Positions 7,680-19,678 of a stretch of 38,182 nt of DNA are shown here, in pieces. The position numbers were made by a program, and so were the translations under genes. The DNA is taken from assembly GCA_903955385.1 (NCBI GenBank), contig CAJBNH010000147.1, positions 1-38,182 of the forward strand, in the 5' to 3' direction. Every line of letters begins with the position of its first letter. The stretch's first letter is position 1. The DNA comes from an uncultured Myxococcales bacterium (lineage in GTDB: Bacteria; Myxococcota_A; UBA9042). Below the pieces are notes generated by a model, which did no database searches, had not been told where the DNA came from, and was given only the letters and a program-made list of their open reading frames with translations.

Positions 7680-7724
7680 GCTCTCGCGCCGTCGGATTTC
7701 CCCCCTGGCGCCGCGAGGCTCGTG

Positions 7725-10025
7725 ATGGCGCCCAACAGTTCTGCGCTAGACGAATTCCTCGTCGAAGCCAAGGAACACCTCGATGCGATCGAGGAAGATC
7801 TGCTGGCAGCGGGCGTGGAAGGCGCAACGGCCACCGACGAGCAGGTCCGCCGGGTCTTTCGCGCGATTCATACCATCAAGGGCAATGCGGGCTTCTTCGG
7901 CTTCAAGCGCACGGCGACCCTCGCGCACGCCATGGAGACGCTGCTCGCCCTCGCGCGTGCCCACAAGGTCGTGCTGGGGCCCACGCACGTCGACGGCTTG
8001 CTGCACTGTGTGGACGTCCTCCGCGCGCTGCTCGACGACGCAGAGACCTCCGATGGACCTGACATCGCCGTGGCCATGGCGCGCGTCGCTGCGCTGGTCG
8101 AGAGGGGGGGAGCCCTAGCCGGTCCTCCGCCGCAGGTTCCCACCGCCCAGCCCGCGCCGCCCTTGCTTCCCCCGGATCGCACCGTGGCTCCCCCGGATCG
8201 CACCGCGGCTCCCCCGGAAGTCCCAGTGGCGCCTACAGAACCTCAGGACGACGACCTGAGCGCCCCTGCGGTGGATGCTTCGCCGGCTGCCCAGGGCTCT
8301 CTGCGCGTGCGGCTCGAACTGCTCGACCACCTGATGATGCTGGCGGGCGAGCTCGTGCTCGTGCGCAACCAACACCTGCAGCACGCGGACCCCAACAGCT
8401 TGACGGAGCGCGCCCTGTCGCAGCGGCTCGATGCCCTGACGATGGGGATCCAACAGACCGTCATGCAAACGCGCATGCAGCCAATCGGCAACCTCTTTGG
8501 CAAGTACGCACGCGTCGTGCACGACCTCGCGGCCAAGCTCGGCAAGTCCATCGCGCTCGAGATGACAGGTAGCCAGGTCGAACTCGACAAGACGATTCTC
8601 GAGCTGCTGACCGACCCGCTGACCCACGTCATCCGCAACAGCTGCGACCACGGCATCGAACCTGCGGAGCTGCGAAGGTCCGCGGGCAAACCCGACGTGG
8701 GCCGCATTACCTTGGCGGCTCGGCACGAGGGCAGCCAGATCGTGGTCGAGATCGCCGACGATGGCCGCGGGATCGACGTCCGCGCACTGCGCGACAAGGC
8801 CCTGAGCTCAGGCATGAAGACGTCGGCCGACCTGACGGGCATGAACCGCAATGAGCTGTTGTCGCTGGCTTTTCTTCCCGGTCTATCCTCGGCGGGCAGC
8901 GTCAGCGATGTCTCTGGGCGCGGCGTGGGCATGGACGTCGTGCGGACGGGAGTCGAGCGCCTGGGAGGCACGGTCGAGCTCAGGTCGCAACCCGGCCAGG
9001 GCACGGTTCTGGTGCTGAAGATGCCGCTGACGTTGGCCATCATCCCCTCGCTGGTCCTCGCGAGCGAAGGCCGACGATTCGCCATTCCCCAGGCCAACAT
9101 CGAAGAGCTGGTGCGACTGTACGACGCCGACGTGAACGATCGGATCGCGTGCGTGGGGGACCGGGAAGTCTGCCGGCTAAGGGGTCAACTCGTGCCCGTC
9201 GCCCATCTGGCGGAGGTGTTGCGGCGCCCCGTGCCCTTCGACGCCGCCACACAGGCCGAGATCACCAAGACCTCGAGTGCCGCGCGGCGCGAGTGCTGGC
9301 GCGCAGCCGAGGCCCGGCTCGCGAAGGGCGAGTCTTCCCAGTGCATGATCACGTTTGCGATCTTGAGGGTCGGGGCAACTCGCTTCGCCTTGGTCCTCGA
9401 CGACCTGCTGGGCATCCAAGAGATCGTCGTCAAGCCCATCCATCGTTGTCTCAAGCACGTGAGCATCTACGCCGGGGCAACCGTCCTGGGTGACGGTCAG
9501 GTGGCGCTCATCCTCGATGCGCTGGGCTTGGCCCGCCACGCGAGAGTGGAATTCGACGGCGAGCCGGCACGCGCCACGCCGCACGGCGGGCCCCCTCACG
9601 ACCACCGCGAGCACCTGTCTCTTCTGCTGTTTGCGTGCGGCGCCGACGAGCGGTTCGGGGTCGACCTGCGCCGTGTCAGGCGCATCGAGCAGATCGAGCG
9701 CCGGCAGATCGAGCGAGCCGCGGGCCAGGAGTACGTCACGATCGAAGGACGCATGACCCCCGTCGTGCGCCTGGATCGCGTGTTGTCGGTGTCGCCCACC
9801 CCAGACAGCGACACGATGTACCTGGTCCTGGTCCACCACGCGCCTGCGTTCGGCGTGCTCGTTTCCAGTGTCATCGACGCAGGCAGCTACGACCTGGTGC
9901 TCGATCGCGTGACCATGCCGATTCGCGGGGTGACGGCGTCGGCAGTGCAGGGCGGCCACATGACGCTGCTGCTCGACATCGACTACATCGGCCGGGCCAT
10001 CCCCGTCGAAAGAGGTGCTGCGTGA
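7725..10025 (+). CDS. cheA: Chemosensory histidine kinase CheA
   Basis: Cytoplasmic kinase of 766 residues that couples a receptor array to response regulators. Domains in order: Hpt (1-125; His49 in AIHTIKGNAGF is the phosphorylation site), a Pro-rich linker (130-190), dimerisation (192-255), HATPase (285-435, with RNSCDHGIE, DDGRGID and GRGVGMDVV), a first CheW-like domain (437-605) and a second (630-766). Two CheW-like modules are unusual; the classical enzyme has one. There is no receiver domain, unlike WspE. No clear CheY/CheB-binding P2 domain is seen between Hpt and dimerisation. ATG 7725 follows GAGG at 7 bases; GTG 7722 is possible. The stop overlaps cheW by four bases. Confidence 0.95.
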   Translation: MAPNSSALDEFLVEAKEHLDAIEEDLLAAGVEGATATDEQVRRVFRAIHTIKGNAGFFGFKRTATLAHAMETLLALARAHKVVLGPTHVDGLLHCVDVLRALLDDAETSDGPDIAVAMARVAALVERGGALAGPPPQVPTAQPAPPLLPPDRTVAPPDRTAAPPEVPVAPTEPQDDDLSAPAVDASPAAQGSLRVRLELLDHLMMLAGELVLVRNQHLQHADPNSLTERALSQRLDALTMGIQQTVMQTRMQPIGNLFGKYARVVHDLAAKLGKSIALEMTGSQVELDKTILELLTDPLTHVIRNSCDHGIEPAELRRSAGKPDVGRITLAARHEGSQIVVEIADDGRGIDVRALRDKALSSGMKTSADLTGMNRNELLSLAFLPGLSSAGSVSDVSGRGVGMDVVRTGVERLGGTVELRSQPGQGTVLVLKMPLTLAIIPSLVLASEGRRFAIPQANIEELVRLYDADVNDRIACVGDREVCRLRGQLVPVAHLAEVLRRPVPFDAATQAEITKTSSAARRECWRAAEARLAKGESSQCMITFAILRVGATRFALVLDDLLGIQEIVVKPIHRCLKHVSIYAGATVLGDGQVALILDALGLARHARVEFDGEPARATPHGGPPHDHREHLSLLLFACGADERFGVDLRRVRRIEQIERRQIERAAGQEYVTIEGRMTPVVRLDRVLSVSPTPDSDTMYLVLVHHAPAFGVLVSSVIDAGSYDLVLDRVTMPIRGVTASAVQGGHMTLLLDIDYIGRAIPVERGAA
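8169..8217 (+). repeat. 21-bp tandem repeat in the CheA linker
   Basis: Two near-identical 21-bp units plus a partial third encode PPDRTVA, PPDRTAA and PPE. They differ at one base. They lie in the flexible linker between Hpt and dimerisation domains and may vary in number between strains. Confidence 0.7.
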
Positions 10026-10552
10026 CCACCAGCGCACCCATCGGCCATGGCAAGGAAATGTGGATGCATCTCTTCACCTTTCGACTGGCCGGTCGCCTGT
10101 TCGGGGTCGATATCCACGACGTCAAAGAGGTGGTCCAGGACGTCGCGCTGACCCCGGTAAGCCACGCTCCGCCAGCCGTCAGCGGTCTCGTCGCCATTCG
10201 CGGACAGATTCACCTGATCGTCGATCTGCGCGTCATCTTCGGGTTCGACCAGGAGCCCCCCAGCAAGGACTCGCGCCTCGTGCTGTTCCGCGCTGCGGTC
10301 GATGAGCCGTTCGGGATCCTCGTGGATGCCACGGACGCGGTCAGGGTCATCGCGACCGCCGAAATCGTGGATCGTCGACGCCGGCAGGATCGTCCCCCAG
10401 CGGCCGTCGGAGATCGGCGACGCAGCGCGCCCGACATCGGGATCGGGGTCTGCCCCCTCGACGAAGGTCTCATCGTCATTCTCCATGCGCGCGGCATCCT
10501 TGGTGCCCTTGCGCGCGCGCCAGCCACCCGACCCGACCCTCACGGTTCGTGA
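10022..10552 (+). CDS. cheW: CheW-type scaffold protein
   Basis: A 176-residue adaptor that would link CheA to the receptor. The CheW fold is visible: FTFRLAGRLFGVDIHDVKEVV, then a loop, SGLVAIRGQIHLIVDLRVIFG, and FGILVDATDAVRVI. The segment around residues 119-143 (DRRRRQDRPPA and onward) is Arg-rich and less conserved, and the usual last strands are diverged. It starts at GTG 10022 inside the cheA stop (GTGA), so translation is coupled. The receptor gene follows after 12 bases. Confidence 0.9.
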   Translation: MTTSAPIGHGKEMWMHLFTFRLAGRLFGVDIHDVKEVVQDVALTPVSHAPPAVSGLVAIRGQIHLIVDLRVIFGFDQEPPSKDSRLVLFRAAVDEPFGILVDATDAVRVIATAEIVDRRRRQDRPPAAVGDRRRSAPDIGIGVCPLDEGLIVILHARGILGALARAPATRPDPHGS

Positions 10553-10564
10553 GAAGGACTTGCC

Positions 10565-12337
10565 ATGCTCGACAACATGAAGATGCGAACCAAGCTCACC
10601 CTCCCCTTTCTGGGCAGCGGTCTGATCGCGGCCGTGATGGCCGCAGCTGGCCTGTTCGCCATCCACCTGCTCAGCGATCAAATGCGCGACGTGGCCCACG
10701 TGCACCTTCCGGCGACCGAGATCCTGTACGACGTGCACGACGCCCAGACCGAAGTGCTGGGACATGAATACGCCATGCTTGCCGCGCAGCTGCCCTCGGA
10801 ACGGCGGCGGTCGCTGTACGGCGAATTCGAGCAGGCCAAGCGTCGCATCGAGGGGGCAAGAAAGCGCTACGAGGCACTTCCCTTGAGCAAGTCTGAGGCT
10901 GCGCAGTGGAGCCAGATCGCCGCGGCGCAGGGCAGGTGGTGGCAGGGGCACGAGGCATTCGTCGGGCTGATGCAGCAATGGGAACGCAACCCGACGGACG
11001 CCCTGATGATCCAGGCGGTGCGGCAGACGATGCATGTCAATGCCGCGGCGCTGCGCGACGCCCAAGGACCGCTGATGCGGGCGATCGAGGCCAACCGCGC
11101 CGCCATCTCCCGGGACGGGCATGACGTCGAGGCGGCTGCGAACCTGGCCGTGTGGGTGGTGGTGCTTTGCACGTGTTTCGGCTTCACGCTTGCGTTCGCG
11201 CTTGCCGTGGTCCTTGCACGAAGCGTGACCGTGCCTGTCGCAGCTGCGGTGACCGTTCTCGACCGTCTCGGCTCTGGCGACCTGACCCAGCGCCTTCAGC
11301 TCGATCGCAAGGACGAGTTGGGTGACATGGCCGCTGGACTCAACCGGCTCGCCGAAAGTCTGACCAAGGCCCTGGTCGAGGTTCAGGGCAACGCGGGGGG
11401 GCTGGCACAGGCCTCCGAGCAGATGTCGAGCGTCGCCAGCCAGCTGGCCGGCAATGCCGAAGAGACCAGCGCCCAGTCAAGCGCCGTGGCGGGCACGGTC
11501 GAGCAAATGAGCGGCAATATCAACAGCATGGCGTCGGGCGCCGAGCAAATGAGCGTCAATGCAGCAGCGGTCGCGTCCGCGTCTGAGCAGATGTCGCACA
11601 ACATCGACGCCGTGTCGGTCGCGATCGAAGAGATGTCGGTGTCGATCGGCGCGATCACCAAGAACGCGCAGGGAGCTCGCGCCGTATCGGGCGACGCCAA
11701 CGACATGGCCAAAGCGGCGACGCAAGCGATGAGTGACCTGGGACGAGGCGCCAAGGAGATCGGCAAGGTCACCGATGTCATCAAGCGCATTGCCGAGCGC
11801 ACCAACCTCCTGGCGCTCAACGCGACCATCGAGGCGGCGTCGGCAGGCGACGCTGGCAGGGGCTTCGCGGTGGTAGCGAACGAAATCAAGGAGTTGGCCA
11901 ACCAGAGCGCGTTGGCGGCCGGCGACATCGCCACACGCATCGAGGGGATGCAGGACCATACCGTGCAGGCCGTGTCCGTCATCTCGGAGGTCACCCAGAT
12001 CATTCGCAAGATCAGCGAAGGCGTGGCGGCCATCACCCACGCGGTCGAGCAGCAGACGCTCGCTGCGAACCACATCTCGGCCAACGTCGCGGAGGCGTCC
12101 AAGGGCGCACGCAGCATCGCAAGGTCGGTCGCCGAGGTGGCTACCGGGTCCACGGACATGTCGCGCAACGTCGGCGAGGCGGCCATCGGCACCCGAGACG
12201 TGGCCCGCAACATCGCCAATGTCAGCCTGGCCGCAGGGGATTCAACCCGCGCCGCCCAACAGGTGAACGCGGCTGCCCACGAACTGGCCCGAATGGCCAC
12301 GGCACTGCGAACCCTCGTCGCGCAGTTCAGAACCTAG
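10565..12337 (+). CDS. Methyl-accepting chemotaxis protein
   Basis: Membrane chemoreceptor of 590 residues. TM1 is near 12-35 and TM2 near 192-218; between them a mostly helical four-helix-bundle-like sensor of about 155 residues faces the periplasm. A HAMP domain (219-272) leads to a long coiled-coil signalling rod whose tip carries the universal ERTNLLALNATIEAA motif (411-425), where CheA and CheW bind. Repeated EEMS/SEQMS patterns suggest methylation sites for the CheR and CheB of this operon. It ends in AQFRT with no CheR-docking pentapeptide. AAGGA (10554-10558) precedes the ATG. The ligand is unknown. It is the only receptor here, which suits a dedicated pathway like WspA. Confidence 0.94.
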   Translation: MLDNMKMRTKLTLPFLGSGLIAAVMAAAGLFAIHLLSDQMRDVAHVHLPATEILYDVHDAQTEVLGHEYAMLAAQLPSERRRSLYGEFEQAKRRIEGARKRYEALPLSKSEAAQWSQIAAAQGRWWQGHEAFVGLMQQWERNPTDALMIQAVRQTMHVNAAALRDAQGPLMRAIEANRAAISRDGHDVEAAANLAVWVVVLCTCFGFTLAFALAVVLARSVTVPVAAAVTVLDRLGSGDLTQRLQLDRKDELGDMAAGLNRLAESLTKALVEVQGNAGGLAQASEQMSSVASQLAGNAEETSAQSSAVAGTVEQMSGNINSMASGAEQMSVNAAAVASASEQMSHNIDAVSVAIEEMSVSIGAITKNAQGARAVSGDANDMAKAATQAMSDLGRGAKEIGKVTDVIKRIAERTNLLALNATIEAASAGDAGRGFAVVANEIKELANQSALAAGDIATRIEGMQDHTVQAVSVISEVTQIIRKISEGVAAITHAVEQQTLAANHISANVAEASKGARSIARSVAEVATGSTDMSRNVGEAAIGTRDVARNIANVSLAAGDSTRAAQQVNAAAHELARMATALRTLVAQFRT

Positions 12338-12392
12338 CCGAATTCGACTCTCGTTCGCCGCGTGGTGCACCGCAGACTGCCCAAGGAACGCC

Positions 12393-13472
12393 ATGGACAT
12401 CCTGATCGTCGATGACTCATTGGTGTTTCGTCACGCCATCGCTGCCGCGCTGAATCGCGACCCGACCGTCCGCGTCGTGGGGTCCGTTCGCAACGGTCGA
12501 AAGGCCCTCGAGTTCCTGCAGCAACGTCACGTGGACCTGGTCACGCTCGACATGGAGATGCCCGAGATGGACGGGCTCGCCACGCTGGCCGAGATCCAGA
12601 AACTGAACGCCGGCAAGCCCAGAAGCGAGCGCATCGGCGTCGTCGTCGTGTCGACGCACACCCACGCAGGCGCTGCGATGACCCTGCGCGCCTTGGAGGC
12701 TGGCGCATTCGACTTCGTGGCCAAACCTGCGGGCGTCTCAGAAGAAGACGGCGTCGACTTGCTGCACCAGGCCCTTGCGCCGCGGGTCCTTTCCTTTGCC
12801 AGCGCGCGCGCCAGAGCGGGACTTGCCTCGCCCGCTGCGCCCGTCGGTGCTTCTTCACGTCTGCCGTCGGGGTTCTTCGCGTCGGGCACTGCCGACGACG
12901 TTGATGTGATCTGCATCGGCGTCTCCACCGGAGGGCCGCGGGCGCTGGCCGAGATGCTGCCAGCGCTGTGCAAGGTGACGAATCTACCGATCTTCCTGGT
13001 GCAGCACATGCCAGAGGGATTCACGGCTTCGCTCGCAGAGAGTCTGTCGCGGACCTGCCAAGCCCACGTGCGCGAGGCCGTAGATGGCGAATCCGTACAG
13101 CTCGCTACGGTGTATGTCGCGCCCGGGGGACGGCACCTGCTCATCGGTCGCGGCGCCGATGGCTTGGTCGTTCGCATCGCCGACACGCCGCCGGAGAACC
13201 GGTGCCGCCCGTCGGTCGACGTCCTGTTTCGCTCCGCGGCCTCGGTCTGCCAGGGTCGCGTGATCGCCATCGTGATGACCGGCATGGGCAACGACGGCGA
13301 GAAGAGCCTGCGGATGCTCAGACGCGAAGGCGCCCGCATCATCGCCCAGGACGAGGCGACGTCTGTCGTCTGGGGCATGCCGGGCAGCGCGGTGGCCACC
13401 GGTTGCGTCGACAAGGTCGCGGCGCTGATGGACATCCCGTCGGTCGTGGGCCGAATGCTGGGGCGGGGGTAG
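12393..13472 (+). CDS. cheB: Chemoreceptor methylesterase CheB
   Basis: A 359-residue two-domain enzyme that removes receptor methyl groups once phosphorylated. The receiver domain (1-120) has DD at 7-8, phospho-acceptor Asp53 in TLDMEMPEMDG and Lys111. After a variable linker, the esterase domain shows the Ser-His-Asp triad: Ser178 in GVSTGGP, His205 in QHMPEGF and Asp301 in GMGNDG. With the neighbouring CheR it provides adaptation for the receptor at 10565. AAGGAAC lies upstream of the ATG. The CheR gene starts 3 bases after its stop, and I see no internal promoter. Confidence 0.96.
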   Translation: MDILIVDDSLVFRHAIAAALNRDPTVRVVGSVRNGRKALEFLQQRHVDLVTLDMEMPEMDGLATLAEIQKLNAGKPRSERIGVVVVSTHTHAGAAMTLRALEAGAFDFVAKPAGVSEEDGVDLLHQALAPRVLSFASARARAGLASPAAPVGASSRLPSGFFASGTADDVDVICIGVSTGGPRALAEMLPALCKVTNLPIFLVQHMPEGFTASLAESLSRTCQAHVREAVDGESVQLATVYVAPGGRHLLIGRGADGLVVRIADTPPENRCRPSVDVLFRSAASVCQGRVIAIVMTGMGNDGEKSLRMLRREGARIIAQDEATSVVWGMPGSAVATGCVDKVAALMDIPSVVGRMLGRG

Positions 13473-13475
13473 CCC

Positions 13476-14366
13476 ATGAACCTCTCCCAAGACGAATTCC
13501 AGATACTGAGCAAGTACATCGGTCAGACCATTGGCACGCACCTCGGCGAGGACAAGGACTACCTGGTTCGTCAGCGCCTCGCGCCGGTCGTCACTGCCCT
13601 GGGGTTGTCCGGCTTCGGCGACCTCTGCACGGTCTTGTCTTCGTCGCCCTCTGTCCAGGTGCGCGATGCGGTCATCTCGGCCATCACCACGCAGGAGACC
13701 TCCTTCTTTCGCGACGGGCATCCCTTCGAGGCACTGCGGACCACCCTTCTGCCGTGGCTCGGGCAGATCGCAGGGGCGCGGCGGGCAGCTGAGCCGCGCC
13801 GTGTCGGCCCGTACGTGTCCATCCTGTCGGCGGGCGCATCGACGGGCCAGGAGGCCTACAGCATCGCGATGACCGCGGTGGACCACTGCTTGGCGAGCGG
13901 CGGCACGGGACTGCGCCCCGACGATCTGCGGGTGACGGCCATCGACGTGTCATCGTCTGCGCTCGAGCGCGGGCACTCCGGCGTGTACACGGCTGCCGAA
14001 GTGGCGCGCGGGGTCACCCCAGCGCAGCGGAATGCCCATTTCCGTGCGAGCGGCAGCCACTATGCGGTCCGTGACGACCTGCGGCGCATGGTCGAGTTTC
14101 GCCGCGTCAACCTGATAGAACGAGACTGGTCGCTGGGCCTGTTCGACATGGTCTGGTGCCGCAACGTATTGATCTACTTCGACATCGATACCAGGCGCCG
14201 GGTCATGCGACAATTGTGCGACGCGGTCGTCCCGGGAGGCTACCTGGTCGTTGGCGCCACCGAGAACGTCTACGGTCTTATCGAGGGCCCGGTGTCGGTG
14301 CACATGGGCGGGTCCATCGTCTACCGCGTGGGCGAGCGGCCTGAAGCGGACGGAGGCGTGCGATGA
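13476..14366 (+). CDS. cheR: Chemoreceptor methyltransferase CheR
   Basis: A 296-residue S-adenosylmethionine-dependent enzyme that methylates receptor glutamates. It has the N-terminal helical domain ending in TTQETSFFRD (71-80). The SAM-binding motif reads SAGASTGQEAYSIAM (118-132), with Ala and Gln where most CheR proteins have Cys and Glu. It also has AIDVSSSAL, and WCRNVLIYFD at 227-236. There is no TPR tail of the WspC kind. It overlaps the diguanylate cyclase gene by ATGA, so all six genes from cheA probably form one transcript. Confidence 0.95.
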   Translation: MNLSQDEFQILSKYIGQTIGTHLGEDKDYLVRQRLAPVVTALGLSGFGDLCTVLSSSPSVQVRDAVISAITTQETSFFRDGHPFEALRTTLLPWLGQIAGARRAAEPRRVGPYVSILSAGASTGQEAYSIAMTAVDHCLASGGTGLRPDDLRVTAIDVSSSALERGHSGVYTAAEVARGVTPAQRNAHFRASGSHYAVRDDLRRMVEFRRVNLIERDWSLGLFDMVWCRNVLIYFDIDTRRRVMRQLCDAVVPGGYLVVGATENVYGLIEGPVSVHMGGSIVYRVGERPEADGGVR

Positions 14367-15646
14367 CCCCCAGCGACGACGCGACGAAGCGGGTGCTGAT
14401 CGTCGAGAATTCGAAGTTTACGGCGCGCATGGTCAGCCGTGCTCTTGCCGAACGCTGCCACCGCGACTCGCTCGTGGCCGGCACTCTGGCCGAAGCTCGA
14501 CTCCTGTTGGCCGTGCACTCAGGTCAGCTGCTGGCGGCCATCGTCGGCCTCGAATTGCCCGACGCCTCGGGACCGGAGATCGTCGAACTGACCTTGGAAC
14601 ACGGTCTGCCGACCATCGTGCTGACGGCCAGTTGGGACGAGCCGACGCGAGAGCGTGTCTGGATGCACGACGTCTTCGACTACTACCTCAAGGATGAAGA
14701 GGGGTTGCGATCGGTATGCCGAGCGATCCAACGCCTGCCCGACAACCCTGGCATCAAGGTGCTGGTAGTCGATGATTCCGCCGTCTACCGCATGCTCGAG
14801 TCCCGCCTCTTGCGCACGCAAGGCTTCCAGGTGCTGCTCGCTCATGACGGAGCGGACGCGATGGCCGTCCTCGAGGCCCACCCCGACATCAGTCTGGTCG
14901 TCACGGACTACGAAATGCCCAACGTCGACGGCTTCGAGTTGGTGTCGCGCATCCGACGACGCTTCTCGCGCGAAGAGGTGGCGGTCATGGGGGTGTCGAG
15001 CTCGGGCACGACTGCGACGTCGGTGGGCTTCCTCAAGCACGGCGCCAATGACTTCTTGCCCAAGCCCTACCAGAAGGAGGAGTTCTACTGCCGCGTGTAC
15101 TCGTGCATCGACACCGTCACGGCCATGCGTGCCGTGCAGCGCGCGGCCTTCACCGACGCCTTGACCGGACTGCGCAATCGCTTGAATTTCTTTCGCCTTG
15201 CCCCCGAGGCGTTTTCCAGGGCTGCGGCAGAGGGTAGACCGATGGCCGTGGCCATGCTCGACATCGATTTCTTCAAGAAGGTCAACGACACCTACGGCCA
15301 CGCCGCGGGCGACGCAACCCTTCGCAGCGTCGCACGAATCGCCCGGCGCCACCTCGAGGGGCTCGGCCTCTTTGCCCGATTTGGCGGCGAGGAATTCTGC
15401 TTTCTCGGCACCGACCTGTCGCGAGATGCAGCTCAGGCGGCGTTCGAGGCTGTACGCGCCGAGGTCGAGGCGTCGGTGGTCGAGTTCGAAGGCAGGGCCA
15501 TTCGGGTGACGCTGAGCTCCGGCATAGCCCTGACTGCACGCCCTGGCCTCGACGCGACCTTGGGCGCGGCCGATGAACTGCTGTATGAGGCCAAGCACTC
15601 CGGGCGCAACCGTGTCGTGCTCGAGCCAGAACCGGCCGCATCGTAG
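14363..15646 (+). CDS. REC-REC-GGDEF diguanylate cyclase
   Basis: A 427-residue response regulator, the likely output of the operon. REC1 (10-125) is degenerate: Glu15-Asn16 replace the acidic pair and Gly62 stands where the phospho-Asp should be, though Thr88 and Lys110 remain. REC2 (131-250) is complete: Asp137/138, Asp182 in VTDYEMPNVDG and Lys234. The GGDEF domain (262-420) has the active motif GGEEF (341-345) and LDIDFFKKVND, so it should make cyclic-di-GMP. The position of the inhibitory RxxD site reads EGLG (332-335), suggesting no product feedback. The layout resembles PleD, but placement in a che operon resembles WspR. ATG 14363 overlaps the cheR stop. Confidence 0.93.
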   Translation: MTPSDDATKRVLIVENSKFTARMVSRALAERCHRDSLVAGTLAEARLLLAVHSGQLLAAIVGLELPDASGPEIVELTLEHGLPTIVLTASWDEPTRERVWMHDVFDYYLKDEEGLRSVCRAIQRLPDNPGIKVLVVDDSAVYRMLESRLLRTQGFQVLLAHDGADAMAVLEAHPDISLVVTDYEMPNVDGFELVSRIRRRFSREEVAVMGVSSSGTTATSVGFLKHGANDFLPKPYQKEEFYCRVYSCIDTVTAMRAVQRAAFTDALTGLRNRLNFFRLAPEAFSRAAAEGRPMAVAMLDIDFFKKVNDTYGHAAGDATLRSVARIARRHLEGLGLFARFGGEEFCFLGTDLSRDAAQAAFEAVRAEVEASVVEFEGRAIRVTLSSGIALTARPGLDATLGAADELLYEAKHSGRNRVVLEPEPAAS

Positions 15647-15970: not shown

Positions 15971-18844
15971 CTAGCGAATCGACCCCAAAGCCCGCAACAC
16001 CTTCTCCGCGCTGAACGGCCACGACCGCATCCACACCCCGACGGCGTCATGGATGGCCGAAGCGATGGCGGGCGCCGCCCCGTTGCAGGCGACCTCGGAG
16101 ATCGACTTGGTGCCGTAGGGGCCGTGCTCGTCGTGAATGTCGATCAATTCGGCAACAAACGTCTCGGGCACGTCCTCGATCATCGGCACCTTGTAATCCA
16201 GGAAGTTGGGATTCAGGCAGCGGCCGGTGTCGTCGTAGATCATCTCCTCCCACAGCGAGTGGCCGATGGTCTTCAACACGCCGCCGTAGATCTGCCCCAG
16301 CGCCAGCTCTGGATTCACGGGCGTGCCTGCATCTTGCAGTGCGAAGAACTTCTGCACCGTCACCTTGCCCGTGCGCGTATTGACCGCGACCTGCGCAAAG
16401 TGGGCGCCGTAGGGGATCGACGACTTGTCGGACGTGTAGTGCCCCATCGCGGTCAATTGGCCACAGCCGTCGCCCGCCTCCGAGAAGTGCGCGACCTCGG
16501 CGAATGTCACGGTCTTGCTCGGTCCCACGACCTTCGACGGGTAGACCACCTCGAGCGTGTCGCGCGCTTGCTTGGTCATTTGCGCCGCAGCGTCGAGGAT
16601 CCGCTCCCTGAGCGCATTCGCCGCGTTCAGCGCCGCGCCACCCGAGAAGTACGTGCCCTTGGACGCATAGGCGCCGCAGTCGAACGGCGTGATGTCGGTG
16701 TCGGCCGAGATGACGGCCACGTCCTTGAGCTCGCAGCACAGCGCCTCGGCCGCGAACTTGGAGGTCACGGTGTCGAGACCGGTGCCCAGGTCGGCGCCCC
16801 CCGACAGCAGCATGAAGGTGCCGTCGGACAACAGCTTGATCTCGGCGTTGGCCGAGTCGAGGCCGGGAAGGCCCGAACCCTGCTGGATAATCGCGAAACC
16901 CTTGCCGATCTTGACGTCGGGGTCGCCGCTTTCTTCGCGCTTGCCCCACGCGATGTGTTCAGCGCCGCGCTCCATCGCCGGTCCCAGACCGCAGCTGCCG
17001 GCGCGCTCTGCCTTGCCCTCGCGGCCCTCGCCCAGGCAGCGCAGGATCTCGAGCATCGCGCCTTCGCGCACGCGGTTCTTGTCGACCAGGGCGTAGTGGT
17101 CGACGCCCAGCTTCTCGGCCAGTTCGGCCATCGCCAATTGCAGCGCAAACGAGCCCTTGGGCGCGCCATAGCCCTGATAGGCACCGGTCGGGGCGATATT
17201 CGAGTAATACGTCGTGACGTTGAAGCCGATGTTGTCGCACAGGAACAGCGGCAGCGACTTCGAGCACGCGTTCATGGGCACCGTCAGGCAGTGCGACCCG
17301 TACGGACCGGTATTGGCCTGCAAGTCCATGTACATCGCGGTCAGGGTGCCGTCGCGCTTGGCGCCCAGCTTGACGCGGATCTTCATCACGTGGCGGGTGC
17401 GGCAGGCGATGAACTGCTCTTCGCGGGTAAAGCGCTGGTAGATCGACCGGCCGGTGATCCAGGTCAGGTACGCCGGCACTTCCTCCAGCACGATGTCCTG
17501 CTTGGCCCCGTAGCCACCGCCCACCCGCTCCTTGATCACGCGGATGTTGTTCTCGCTGGTGCCCAAAATGGCCGCGACGATGCGGCGCAGGTGGAAGGGC
17601 ACTTGCGTCGACGCGTGGATCACCAGCCGATCGCCGTCCATCTTGGTGTAGACGACGTGCGTCTCGGTCGAGGTGCTCTGGATCTGGCTGCTCTCGTACT
17701 CACGCTCGATCACGACGTCGGCGTCGCGGAAGCCCTGGTCGACGTCGCCGATGTGGCCATGCACCGACGCCGCGATGTTCTTGCGCGGGTTGGCGTGGAT
17801 CGGGAACTGGTAGATCACGCGGCCGTCGCGCGGGTCCGCCAAGCGGTTGTCCTCTTCCAGACCTTCCGGGGCGCCGACGACATACGCCAGGTGGCTGTTG
17901 TGGATCAGGGGCGCACCCGGGGCGGCGGCCTGCTCGATGGTCATCACCGGCGGCAGCACCTCATAGTCAACGACCAGCTTGGCCGCTGCCTCTTCGGCAG
18001 CCTCCCACGTCTCGGCGACGATGGCCGCGACCCGGTCGCCCACGTGCCGCACCTTTTCGCTGATCAGCTTGCGGTCATAGGGCGACGGCTCGGGAAAGCC
18101 TTGTCCCGCCTGATTGTAGTACACGTCGGGGCAATTCTTGTGCGTCAGGATGTAGACGACGCCGGGCACCTTCTCGGCCTCGGTCGTGTCGATCTGGCGA
18201 ATGTAGGCGTGGGCGTGCGGCGAGCGGACCATCTTCAGGATGCACGAGCCCGGCTCGACCATGTCCTCGACGTAGGCCTTGTCGCCGCGCACCAGCTTGG
18301 GGCCGTCGACCTTGCGGCGCTGCTTGCCAACCAGCCGCAGATCCTGGGCAAATTCCTGCACCTTGGGCGGCACGTAGTCCGGGTCCGCCAGACGGCGCGA
18401 GGCCGTCTCGACCGCCGTGTAGTACTGCTCGTAGCCGGTACAGCGGCAAAACACCCCCGACAGACCATCGCGCACTTCGGCCTTGGTCGGCGTGGGCGAC
18501 CGCGACAGCACGTCTTCGATCGCCATCACCATCGCGGGCGTGCAGTAGCCGCACTGCGACACGCCGGCATCGAGCAGCGACGCCTGCACGATCGACAGCG
18601 TGCGCTGCCGACGGTAGTGATCGACCGTGACGATCGAGTGGCCGTCCAGCTGCGCCGCCGACAACAGGCACGAATTGACCAGCTTGCCGTCGTAGTGGAT
18701 CGAACAAATGCCGCAGATGCCCTCGCCGTTGCAGCCGTCGCGCAACACAAGGGCGCCCTGTCGCCGCAGCACGGCGGTGGCGCGCTCGCCGGGTTCGACG
18801 TCAAGCTGGCGAGGAACGCCGTTGATTTGGACTCGGATCTTCAT
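15971..18844 (-). CDS. Molybdenum hydroxylase, fused 2Fe-2S/Mo subunit
   Basis: A 957-residue xanthine dehydrogenase-family protein in which the iron-sulfur and molybdopterin parts are one chain, as in E. coli XdhD and selenium-dependent hydroxylases. The N-terminal ferredoxin cluster uses Cys38, 44, 47 and 59; the second cluster uses Cys98, 101, 133 and 135 (SQCGYC, CRCTGY). The Mo domains follow from about residue 160, with GGGYGAKQD, TGAYQGYGAPKG and a terminal GTKSISEVACNGAAP that should carry the catalytic Glu. Likely substrates are purines or other N-heterocycles; the sequence does not decide. The ATG lies 3 bases after the FAD-subunit stop. YqeC at 4716 hints at a labile selenium atom in the cofactor. 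Confidence 0.9.
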   Translation of the reverse strand: MKIRVQINGVPRQLDVEPGERATAVLRRQGALVLRDGCNGEGICGICSIHYDGKLVNSCLLSAAQLDGHSIVTVDHYRRQRTLSIVQASLLDAGVSQCGYCTPAMVMAIEDVLSRSPTPTKAEVRDGLSGVFCRCTGYEQYYTAVETASRRLADPDYVPPKVQEFAQDLRLVGKQRRKVDGPKLVRGDKAYVEDMVEPGSCILKMVRSPHAHAYIRQIDTTEAEKVPGVVYILTHKNCPDVYYNQAGQGFPEPSPYDRKLISEKVRHVGDRVAAIVAETWEAAEEAAAKLVVDYEVLPPVMTIEQAAAPGAPLIHNSHLAYVVGAPEGLEEDNRLADPRDGRVIYQFPIHANPRKNIAASVHGHIGDVDQGFRDADVVIEREYESSQIQSTSTETHVVYTKMDGDRLVIHASTQVPFHLRRIVAAILGTSENNIRVIKERVGGGYGAKQDIVLEEVPAYLTWITGRSIYQRFTREEQFIACRTRHVMKIRVKLGAKRDGTLTAMYMDLQANTGPYGSHCLTVPMNACSKSLPLFLCDNIGFNVTTYYSNIAPTGAYQGYGAPKGSFALQLAMAELAEKLGVDHYALVDKNRVREGAMLEILRCLGEGREGKAERAGSCGLGPAMERGAEHIAWGKREESGDPDVKIGKGFAIIQQGSGLPGLDSANAEIKLLSDGTFMLLSGGADLGTGLDTVTSKFAAEALCCELKDVAVISADTDITPFDCGAYASKGTYFSGGAALNAANALRERILDAAAQMTKQARDTLEVVYPSKVVGPSKTVTFAEVAHFSEAGDGCGQLTAMGHYTSDKSSIPYGAHFAQVAVNTRTGKVTVQKFFALQDAGTPVNPELALGQIYGGVLKTIGHSLWEEMIYDDTGRCLNPNFLDYKVPMIEDVPETFVAELIDIHDEHGPYGTKSISEVACNGAAPAIASAIHDAVGVWMRSWPFSAEKVLRALGSIR
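16010..16032 (+). repeat. 23-bp repeat, copy 2
   Basis: Same 23 bases and orientation as 5494-5516. Here it lies inside the Mo hydroxylase gene and encodes MRSWPFS, 13-19 residues before its end, on the minus strand. Confidence 0.85.
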
Positions 18845-18847
18845 GGA

Positions 18848-19678
18848 TTACCCTTTCGCGTCGAGGGCTTCGCGCAGACCGTCACTGATCATGACCGCCG
18901 CGAGGTGTCGTTTGAACGCCGCGCTGCCCCGCAGGTCGTCGGCTGACTGGACCAGCTGGCGCACCAGATCGTCGACCTCGTCGCGCGAAGGCAGGGGTTG
19001 TCCGTGCAGCCGTTGTTCCAGCGCCGTCAGGCGGGTGGCGTGCGGCACGGCACCGTTGAGGGCGATGATCGGCTGCTCGATGCGCTGGGCGTTGCCGCCG
19101 CACGTCAGGCCGATGGCGACGATCGGCACGTCGATGGCGGTGCGGCAGTGCTTCTGGACGGCCCAGCGCCGCGACTGCCAGCCATTCGGGATGCGAAACG
19201 CGAGGATCAGCGCCTCGCGATCCTGATGCTCGAGGTAGTCGACCAGCGGCACGAAGCGCTGCCCGGCGGCATCGGCCAGCTCCACGCTGGCGTCCAGGGC
19301 CAGCAGCACGGGCGCCAGATTCGAGCACGAACCGTTGCTGGCGATGTTGCCGCCCACCGTGCCCATGTGCCGCACGCTGCGGCTGGAGAACTGGCTGGCC
19401 GCGGTCGCGAGCATCGGCGGCACGCCCGGGCGGTCCACCAGCTCTTGAATCGTCACGTTGGCGCCGATCGTGACGGCACCGTCGGCGGTCGTCACATCAC
19501 CCAGCGGCAGCCGGTCCAGCAGGATCGCCGTGACGAACTCGCCGACCGGTCGGCTGGGCCAAGTGATCGAATTGATTTCCGTTCCGCCGGCAAAGTAGAG
19601 GCTGGCCGGAGACGCCTGCCGCAACCGCACCGCCTCAGCGATGCTGGTCGGGTGATGGAACTCCTGAATCATCTTCAC
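18848..19678 (-). CDS. Molybdenum hydroxylase FAD-binding subunit
   Basis: A 276-residue cytoplasmic flavoprotein of the CO dehydrogenase/xanthine dehydrogenase FAD-subunit family, which passes electrons from the iron-sulfur clusters to an acceptor. Hallmarks are YFAGGTEIN (28-36), the FAD-binding loop VRHMGTVGGNIASNGSCSNLAPVLLALDA (about 102-130), and a C-terminal domain ending in FKRHLAAVMISDGL. The length is normal. Starts at GTG 19678 and ATG 19672 are both possible; GAGGTG sits at 19682-19677, so ATG 19672 is a serious alternative. It is the first gene of a two-gene operon, with the catalytic subunit 3 bases downstream. Confidence 0.9.
   Translation of the reverse strand: MKMIQEFHHPTSIAEAVRLRQASPASLYFAGGTEINSITWPSRPVGEFVTAILLDRLPLGDVTTADGAVTIGANVTIQELVDRPGVPPMLATAASQFSSRSVRHMGTVGGNIASNGSCSNLAPVLLALDASVELADAAGQRFVPLVDYLEHQDREALILAFRIPNGWQSRRWAVQKHCRTAIDVPIVAIGLTCGGNAQRIEQPIIALNGAVPHATRLTALEQRLHGQPLPSRDEVDDLVRQLVQSADDLRGSAAFKRHLAAVMISDGLREALDAKG

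Follow-up and report, generated by a model that had tools for sequence, protein, structure and literature searches.

To which chemosensory lineage does a che operon belong when its last gene encodes a diguanylate cyclase, and what does such an operon control? A 2022 review assigned every chemosensory system that modulates c-di-GMP to class ACF or class TFP (PMC8846402). The window analysed here is a whole stretch of 38,182 nucleotides from an uncultured Myxococcales bacterium. It carries six consecutive genes on the + strand (7722-15646) that an initial annotation described as Wsp-like and possibly as a distinct class. We propose, with a probability of about 0.72, that they encode an F5-lineage array that was inherited with its receptor and has traded a CheY-type output for a diguanylate cyclase of REC-REC-GGDEF architecture. 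The six genes are as follows.

7722 (GTG start) or alternatively 7725 (ATG start) to 10025, + strand: cheA, the kinase gene (Pfam Hpt 7.8e-16, HATPase 2.9e-15, CheW 1.4e-29)
10022 to 10552, + strand: cheW, the coupling protein gene, with a GTG start that overlaps the cheA stop by 4 bp (Pfam CheW 1.2e-19)
10565 to 12337, + strand: the sole receptor gene of the operon, encoding a periplasmic sensor, HAMP and signalling domain (Pfam 4HB_MCP_1-HAMP-MCPsignal)
12393 to 13472, + strand: cheB, encoding a receiver and a methylesterase (Pfam CheB_methylest 1.2e-61, REC 1.2e-23; NCBIfam NF001965 above cut-off)
13476 to 14366, + strand: cheR, encoding CheR_N-CheR with no TPR domain (Pfam CheR 5.4e-43)
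14363 to 15646, + strand: the cyclase gene, encoding REC1-REC2-GGDEF and overlapping the cheR stop by 4 bp (Pfam GGDEF 8.9e-36, two REC domains)

The spacing between consecutive genes is -4, 12, 55, 3 and -4 bp, with the overlaps at cheA/cheW and at cheR/cyclase, of which the latter reads ATGA. Such short or negative gaps make a single transcription unit likely. All domains of the six proteins exceed the Pfam cut-off, and no CheY and no motility gene lies between 7722 and 15646. Coordinates, gaps and Pfam thus confirm the description of six tightly packed genes that lack both, and Pfam agrees that there is a single cheW and that the cyclase has two receivers. GC content (0.65-0.67) and GC3 (0.76-0.84) are uniform over all six genes, so there is no sign that the cyclase gene is a very recent insert. 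Molybdenum hydroxylase genes face the operon on the - strand (15971-19675). They encode a MoCo-binding large subunit with a [2Fe-2S] domain and an FAD subunit, and have no evident link to it.

The CheA protein comprises an Hpt domain (P1, with His50), P3 (H-kinase_dim), HATPase_c, a CheW domain (P5) and a second CheW domain, without P2 and without a receiver. Its phospho-His and its N, G1 and G2 boxes are all retained in the alignment. HMMER lists three CheW stretches, of which the first two are one domain interrupted by an insertion of about 50 amino acids. A CheW domain split in this manner is a pitfall described for other CheAs (PMC10782961). Once the split domain is counted as one, the two CheW-like domains and the missing receiver of the initial annotation are correct. 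A duplicated CheW domain in CheA, the gene order AW...BR and 38H receptors are hallmarks of class F5 (PMC10782961, PMC10746217), and two CheW domains are found in 99% of F5 CheAs (PMC10782961). The operon has the two CheW domains and the order A-W...B-R. The 38H cognate receptor is absent, its place being taken by a 46H one.

The class of the operon was assigned from such features together with a tree, in place of the Wuichet-Zhulin class models. The tree was built from 48 CheA cores over 435 columns. An F5 clade of 39 rows (support 99/98) includes the CheA of the operon and divides into two halves. The canonical half (97/96) holds Azospirillum, other Alphaproteobacteria, Actinobacteria, Cyanobacteria and others. 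The sister half (97/91) contains the operon CheA, grouped with those of Candidatus Fibrimonas and Pirellula (100/97). Placing the operon CheA with the canonical half alone was rejected by the AU test (p 0.024). Independently of the tree, core proteins were compared by their best phmmer bit scores against the sister group, canonical F5 and ACF. These were 612, 472 and 228 for CheA, 279, 264 and 158 for CheB, 170, 175 and 69 for CheR, and 345, 200 and 105 for the receptor. Each of the five core proteins has its best match among F5-lineage clusters, most of them scoring about twice as high there as against Wsp/ACF. CheW is too short and diverged to discriminate between groups, Fibrimonas excepted. 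Fibrimonas is the top match for CheA, CheW and receptor alike. Because CheA, CheB, CheR and the receptor all favour the F5 lineage and three proteins find their best match in one organism, the core is taken as one inherited set. The Fibrimonas locus itself (L109:3240-8105) encodes these closest relatives of CheA, CheW and the 46H receptor, with no cheB, cheR or response regulator within the 14.6 kb read.

Receptor length was counted in residues between the end of HAMP and the tip of the hairpin, calibrated on Tar (127, 36H), Actinobacterial F5 receptors (134, 38H) and Wsp-type receptors (N arm of L161, 141, 40H). The operon receptor has 162 residues in its N arm and 161 in its C arm. At 23 heptads per arm it is of the 46H class, and the Fibrimonas receptor has the identical arm value. 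Canonical F5 receptors mostly have 133 residues in the C arm (133/134 per arm). Elsewhere in the sister half, receptor C arms measure 147, 175 and 189 residues, corresponding to 42H, 50H and 54H; the N arm was checked in the 50H receptors only. The longest of these, 54H by its C arm, is a tandem-HAMP_2 receptor in an F5-sister cluster of the same phylum (L054:360-10476, - strand). The hairpin tip of the operon receptor (window 11816-11872) reads EAASAGD, with Ser in place of the usual Arg (EAARAGE in Tar and Tsr). The same Ser is found in four members of the F5-sister clade (L046, L050, L054 and L109). The suggestion that the operon forms a distinct class therefore holds in part: its CheA belongs to a group that is sister to canonical F5, and the receptors measured in that group are 42H-54H and not 38H. 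On sequence grounds the operon can best be treated as an F5-lineage variant whose receptor length class has changed and whose output is a cyclase.

The position of the cyclase gene follows a pattern of the sister half. The usual place of CheY in canonical F5 clusters is ahead of cheB, after cheW or the receptor gene. The sister half has 14 other clusters whose flank is readable, and 9 of them (L047, L049, L050, L051, L064, L080, L085, L095 and L118) have a response regulator directly 3' of cheR, in the form of a plain response regulator, a HEAT-REC protein or a hybrid kinase (kinase-REC). In the operon under study the cyclase occupies this slot. No REC-GGDEF gene was found there in about 85 other F5-lineage loci, several of which end at contig edges. 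Three candidates for further cases were rejected: L054 has a GGDEF-EAL gene without a receiver about 1 kb downstream of cheR, and L139 and L135 fall just outside the F5 clade. The actinomycetotal L139 (7269-15112) is a che cluster with CheY plus a REC-GGDEF gene after cheR. A Polynucleobacter F5-lineage cluster (L132:7099-14967) has a receiver joined to a class III adenylate/guanylate cyclase after cheR, an apparent swap of output to cAMP or cGMP. HEAT-repeat-REC proteins adjoin cheR in two F5-sister clusters (L085:5693-7384 and L069:14932-16593). Both clusters lie in the same CheA subclade as the operon. Their HEAT-REC proteins resemble the HEAT-repeat output reported for Myxococcus, and the clusters may be linked to Che7 of that genus. 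It is about an even call whether the sister group of F5 constitutes a third chemosensory lineage controlling c-di-GMP. Such a lineage would have unusually long receptors, 42H-54H where measured, and a slot after cheR that accepts exchangeable outputs: a plain receiver, HEAT-REC, a hybrid kinase or, in this operon, a cyclase. In this case at least, the host would be a non-swimmer.

The two receivers of the cyclase are in different states. In alignments REC1 has Gly62 instead of the phosphorylatable Asp and Asn16 in the acidic pocket, and is a pseudo-receiver. REC2 has Asp137, Asp138, Asp182, Ser212 and Lys234, and thus keeps its phosphorylatable residue, Asp182. The active-site GGEEF (341-345) is intact, and the RxxD I-site is missing, with Glu332 and Gly335 at its positions. 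At full length the protein is 33-38% identical to a REC-REC-GGDEF family of Pseudoalteromonas, Photobacterium, Aeromonas, Shinella and Allorhizobium. It scores 207 of 600 bits against the CbrR model and 191 of 474 bits against the PleD model, both below cut-off, and so shares their architecture but is not the same orthologue. Its nearest solved relative is the double receiver 3luf. A single-sequence AlphaFold model was uninformative (mean pLDDT 36). REC1 is far closer to the REC-REC-GGDEF family than to any response regulator of che clusters, and REC2 is up to 47% identical to that family versus 21-38% to response regulators of che clusters. Since both receivers match the family better, the cyclase was most likely recruited whole from it rather than built on an old CheY. 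No full-length orthologue was found among 71 related genomes, where matches cover REC2-GGDEF only.

The host genome (5.3 Mb, 95.6% complete) encodes two receptors and two CheAs in total, eight GGDEF genes and three PilZ proteins. Flagellar FlhA was not found in it, and nothing exceeded the curated cut-off for PilT. The second che cluster (L152:2-9106 on contig C108, - strand) has the order CheW-MCP-CheR.TPR-CheW-CheA.REC-CheB-RR, which is near that of Wsp. Its last gene, cut by the contig end, encodes REC-PAS-PAS with no GGDEF, so in this host it would be the F5-type array, and not the Wsp-ordered cluster, that carries the che-linked c-di-GMP output. The other receptor of the host has a C arm of about 142 residues, near 40H, and with lengths of 46H and about 40H the two arrays should not mix. 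The operon is absent from 21 genomes of the same family, and no close twin of it was found. An F5-type CheA occurs in 0 of these 21 genomes at the cut-offs used and in only two of the remaining class genomes searched. Vertical inheritance within the host family was rejected on this basis. The operon is sporadic, in a pattern that transfer and repeated loss would explain alike.

An alternative reading is that the true output is a CheY or a hybrid protein encoded elsewhere in the genome, and that the cyclase is a neighbour served by another kinase. The host has many receiver proteins (32 matches), the cheR-cyclase pair was not found in relatives, and the cyclase family is stand-alone in other genomes, for example in Pseudoalteromonas. 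We nevertheless regard this as unlikely. The cyclase is joined to cheR by a 4-bp translational overlap and sits in the usual response regulator slot of the sister clade, and with only eight GGDEF genes in 5.3 Mb a chance adjacency to che genes is improbable. The host receivers closest to the sister-clade response regulator lie in open frames of at least 213 amino acids, and the third best of them is the cyclase's own REC2. No stand-alone CheY is evident in the host among frames measured from stop to stop, a measure that can hide a small CheY, and there is neither FlhA nor PilT as a CheY target. The initial annotation had named placement in a flagellar class with a partner CheY elsewhere as the outcome that would speak against it. 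The lineage is indeed of flagellar type, but the host has no detectable flagella or twitching pili and no evident CheY partner.

A second alternative is that the operon is a true Wsp (ACF-class) relative that was rearranged, with loss of the receiver from CheA and of the TPR domain from CheR. It has the same functional parts, and its 4HB receptor resembles that of WspA (PMC8846402). The GGDEF domain of the cyclase is 40% identical to the WspR type. Grouping of the operon CheA with Wsp, whose branch is long, was also not rejected by the AU test (p 0.104), so the lineage call does not rest on the tree alone. Against this, the operon CheA lies within the F5 clade (99/98), with the Wsp CheAs outside it. 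Scores of CheA, CheB, CheR and the receptor are about two- to threefold lower against Wsp/ACF clusters than against F5-lineage ones. The second CheW domain, the AW...BR order and the 46H receptor also argue against kinship. Four Wsp features, namely a CheA receiver, a CheR TPR domain, a 40H receptor and the Wsp gene order, are missing, and the host already has its separate Wsp-ordered cluster with CheR-TPR and CheA-REC. We consider this alternative highly unlikely. The term Wsp-like is apt as an analogy of function and fails as a statement of kinship. Least probable of all is control of the cyclase by CheA through titration or pseudo-receiver binding without phosphorylation, or a role of REC2 as a phosphate sink: chemosensory systems are known to include phosphate sinks and receivers that act unphosphorylated, and REC1 lacks its Asp, but the acidic pocket of REC2 (Asp182, Ser212, Lys234) is complete and the GGEEF is intact.

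Under the F5-lineage reading, a periplasmic or membrane signal would be sensed by the 4HB receptor, which would act through the CheW protein and both CheW domains of CheA to control autophosphorylation of the kinase at His50. The phosphate would pass from CheA-P to Asp182 of REC2 and to CheB. PleD dimerises and becomes active when one of its receivers is phosphorylated. Phosphorylation of the receiver would similarly favour dimerisation, bringing the GGEEF sites together to make c-di-GMP, and the Asp-less REC1 may serve as a docking domain. Without a primary I-site, output would be curbed by dephosphorylation and by CheB/CheR adaptation, not by product binding. The c-di-GMP may then act on effectors such as the three PilZ proteins and direct a non-motility behaviour (matrix, attachment or development). 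The operon would thus probably turn an outside signal into a lifestyle switch, not into movement. The earlier proposal that receptor signalling controls c-di-GMP, with phosphotransfer as its predicted step, is supported by the genes present, their arrangement as an operon, the intact residues for catalysis and phosphotransfer and the absence of FlhA and PilT.

If this reading is true, an array of the F5 lineage whose output is a diguanylate cyclase would be an exception to the ACF/TFP-only rule (PMC8846402). Coupling of arrays to c-di-GMP would then have evolved again, via a response regulator swap on an otherwise intact array. Because CheA has no receiver and the cluster has no CheY, the path comprises a single receptor, a single kinase and a single apparent output. 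This would make the operon a clean minimal model of how an array controls c-di-GMP and of what a second CheW domain does in CheA.

Among known systems, those of class F5 (Azospirillum brasilense, Rhodospirillum centenum, Actinobacteria) share with the operon the duplicated CheW domain, the A-W-...-B-R order, the CheA lineage and the insertion that splits a CheW domain (PMC10782961). The operon differs from them in having no CheY, no flagellum, no CheA receiver, a 46H instead of a 38H receptor and a diguanylate cyclase output. Wsp (WspA-F and WspR; ACF) likewise has a receptor-CheA-CheB-CheR array, a 4HB receptor and a REC-GGDEF output with no CheY, but is of another lineage. It has two cheW genes where the operon has one, a WspE with one CheW domain and a C-terminal receiver where the operon CheA has two CheW domains and no receiver, and a WspC with TPR where CheR has none. 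The cyclase of the operon has two receivers, unlike that of Wsp, the receptor is 46H and not 40H, and the gene order is A-W-MCP-B-R-cyclase and not MCP-W-R-W-A-B-DGC. The closest precedent in idea is chemosensory cluster 2 of Halomonas titanicae, which belongs with Wsp and also has a single dedicated receptor and a two-receiver cyclase within the che cluster (PMC5907407). That cluster has a CheA receiver, CheR-TPR, CheY, a 40H receptor and an extra Hpt on the cyclase, all of which the operon lacks, and both of its cyclase receivers are phosphorylatable, whereas only REC2 is so here. Cyclases of the CbrR (Campylobacter), PleD and 3luf type share the REC-REC-GGDEF domain order. The Pseudoalteromonas member is stand-alone, whereas the present cyclase lies in a che operon and has a REC1 without Asp. 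Compared with PleD the receiver roles are swapped, REC2 beside the GGDEF domain being the phosphorylatable one. Myxococcus Che7-type clusters also have a non-motility response regulator adjoining cheR, with a HEAT-repeat output and not a cyclase. Judged from its sequence, the operon would work like Wsp by analogy and is not a member of Wsp.
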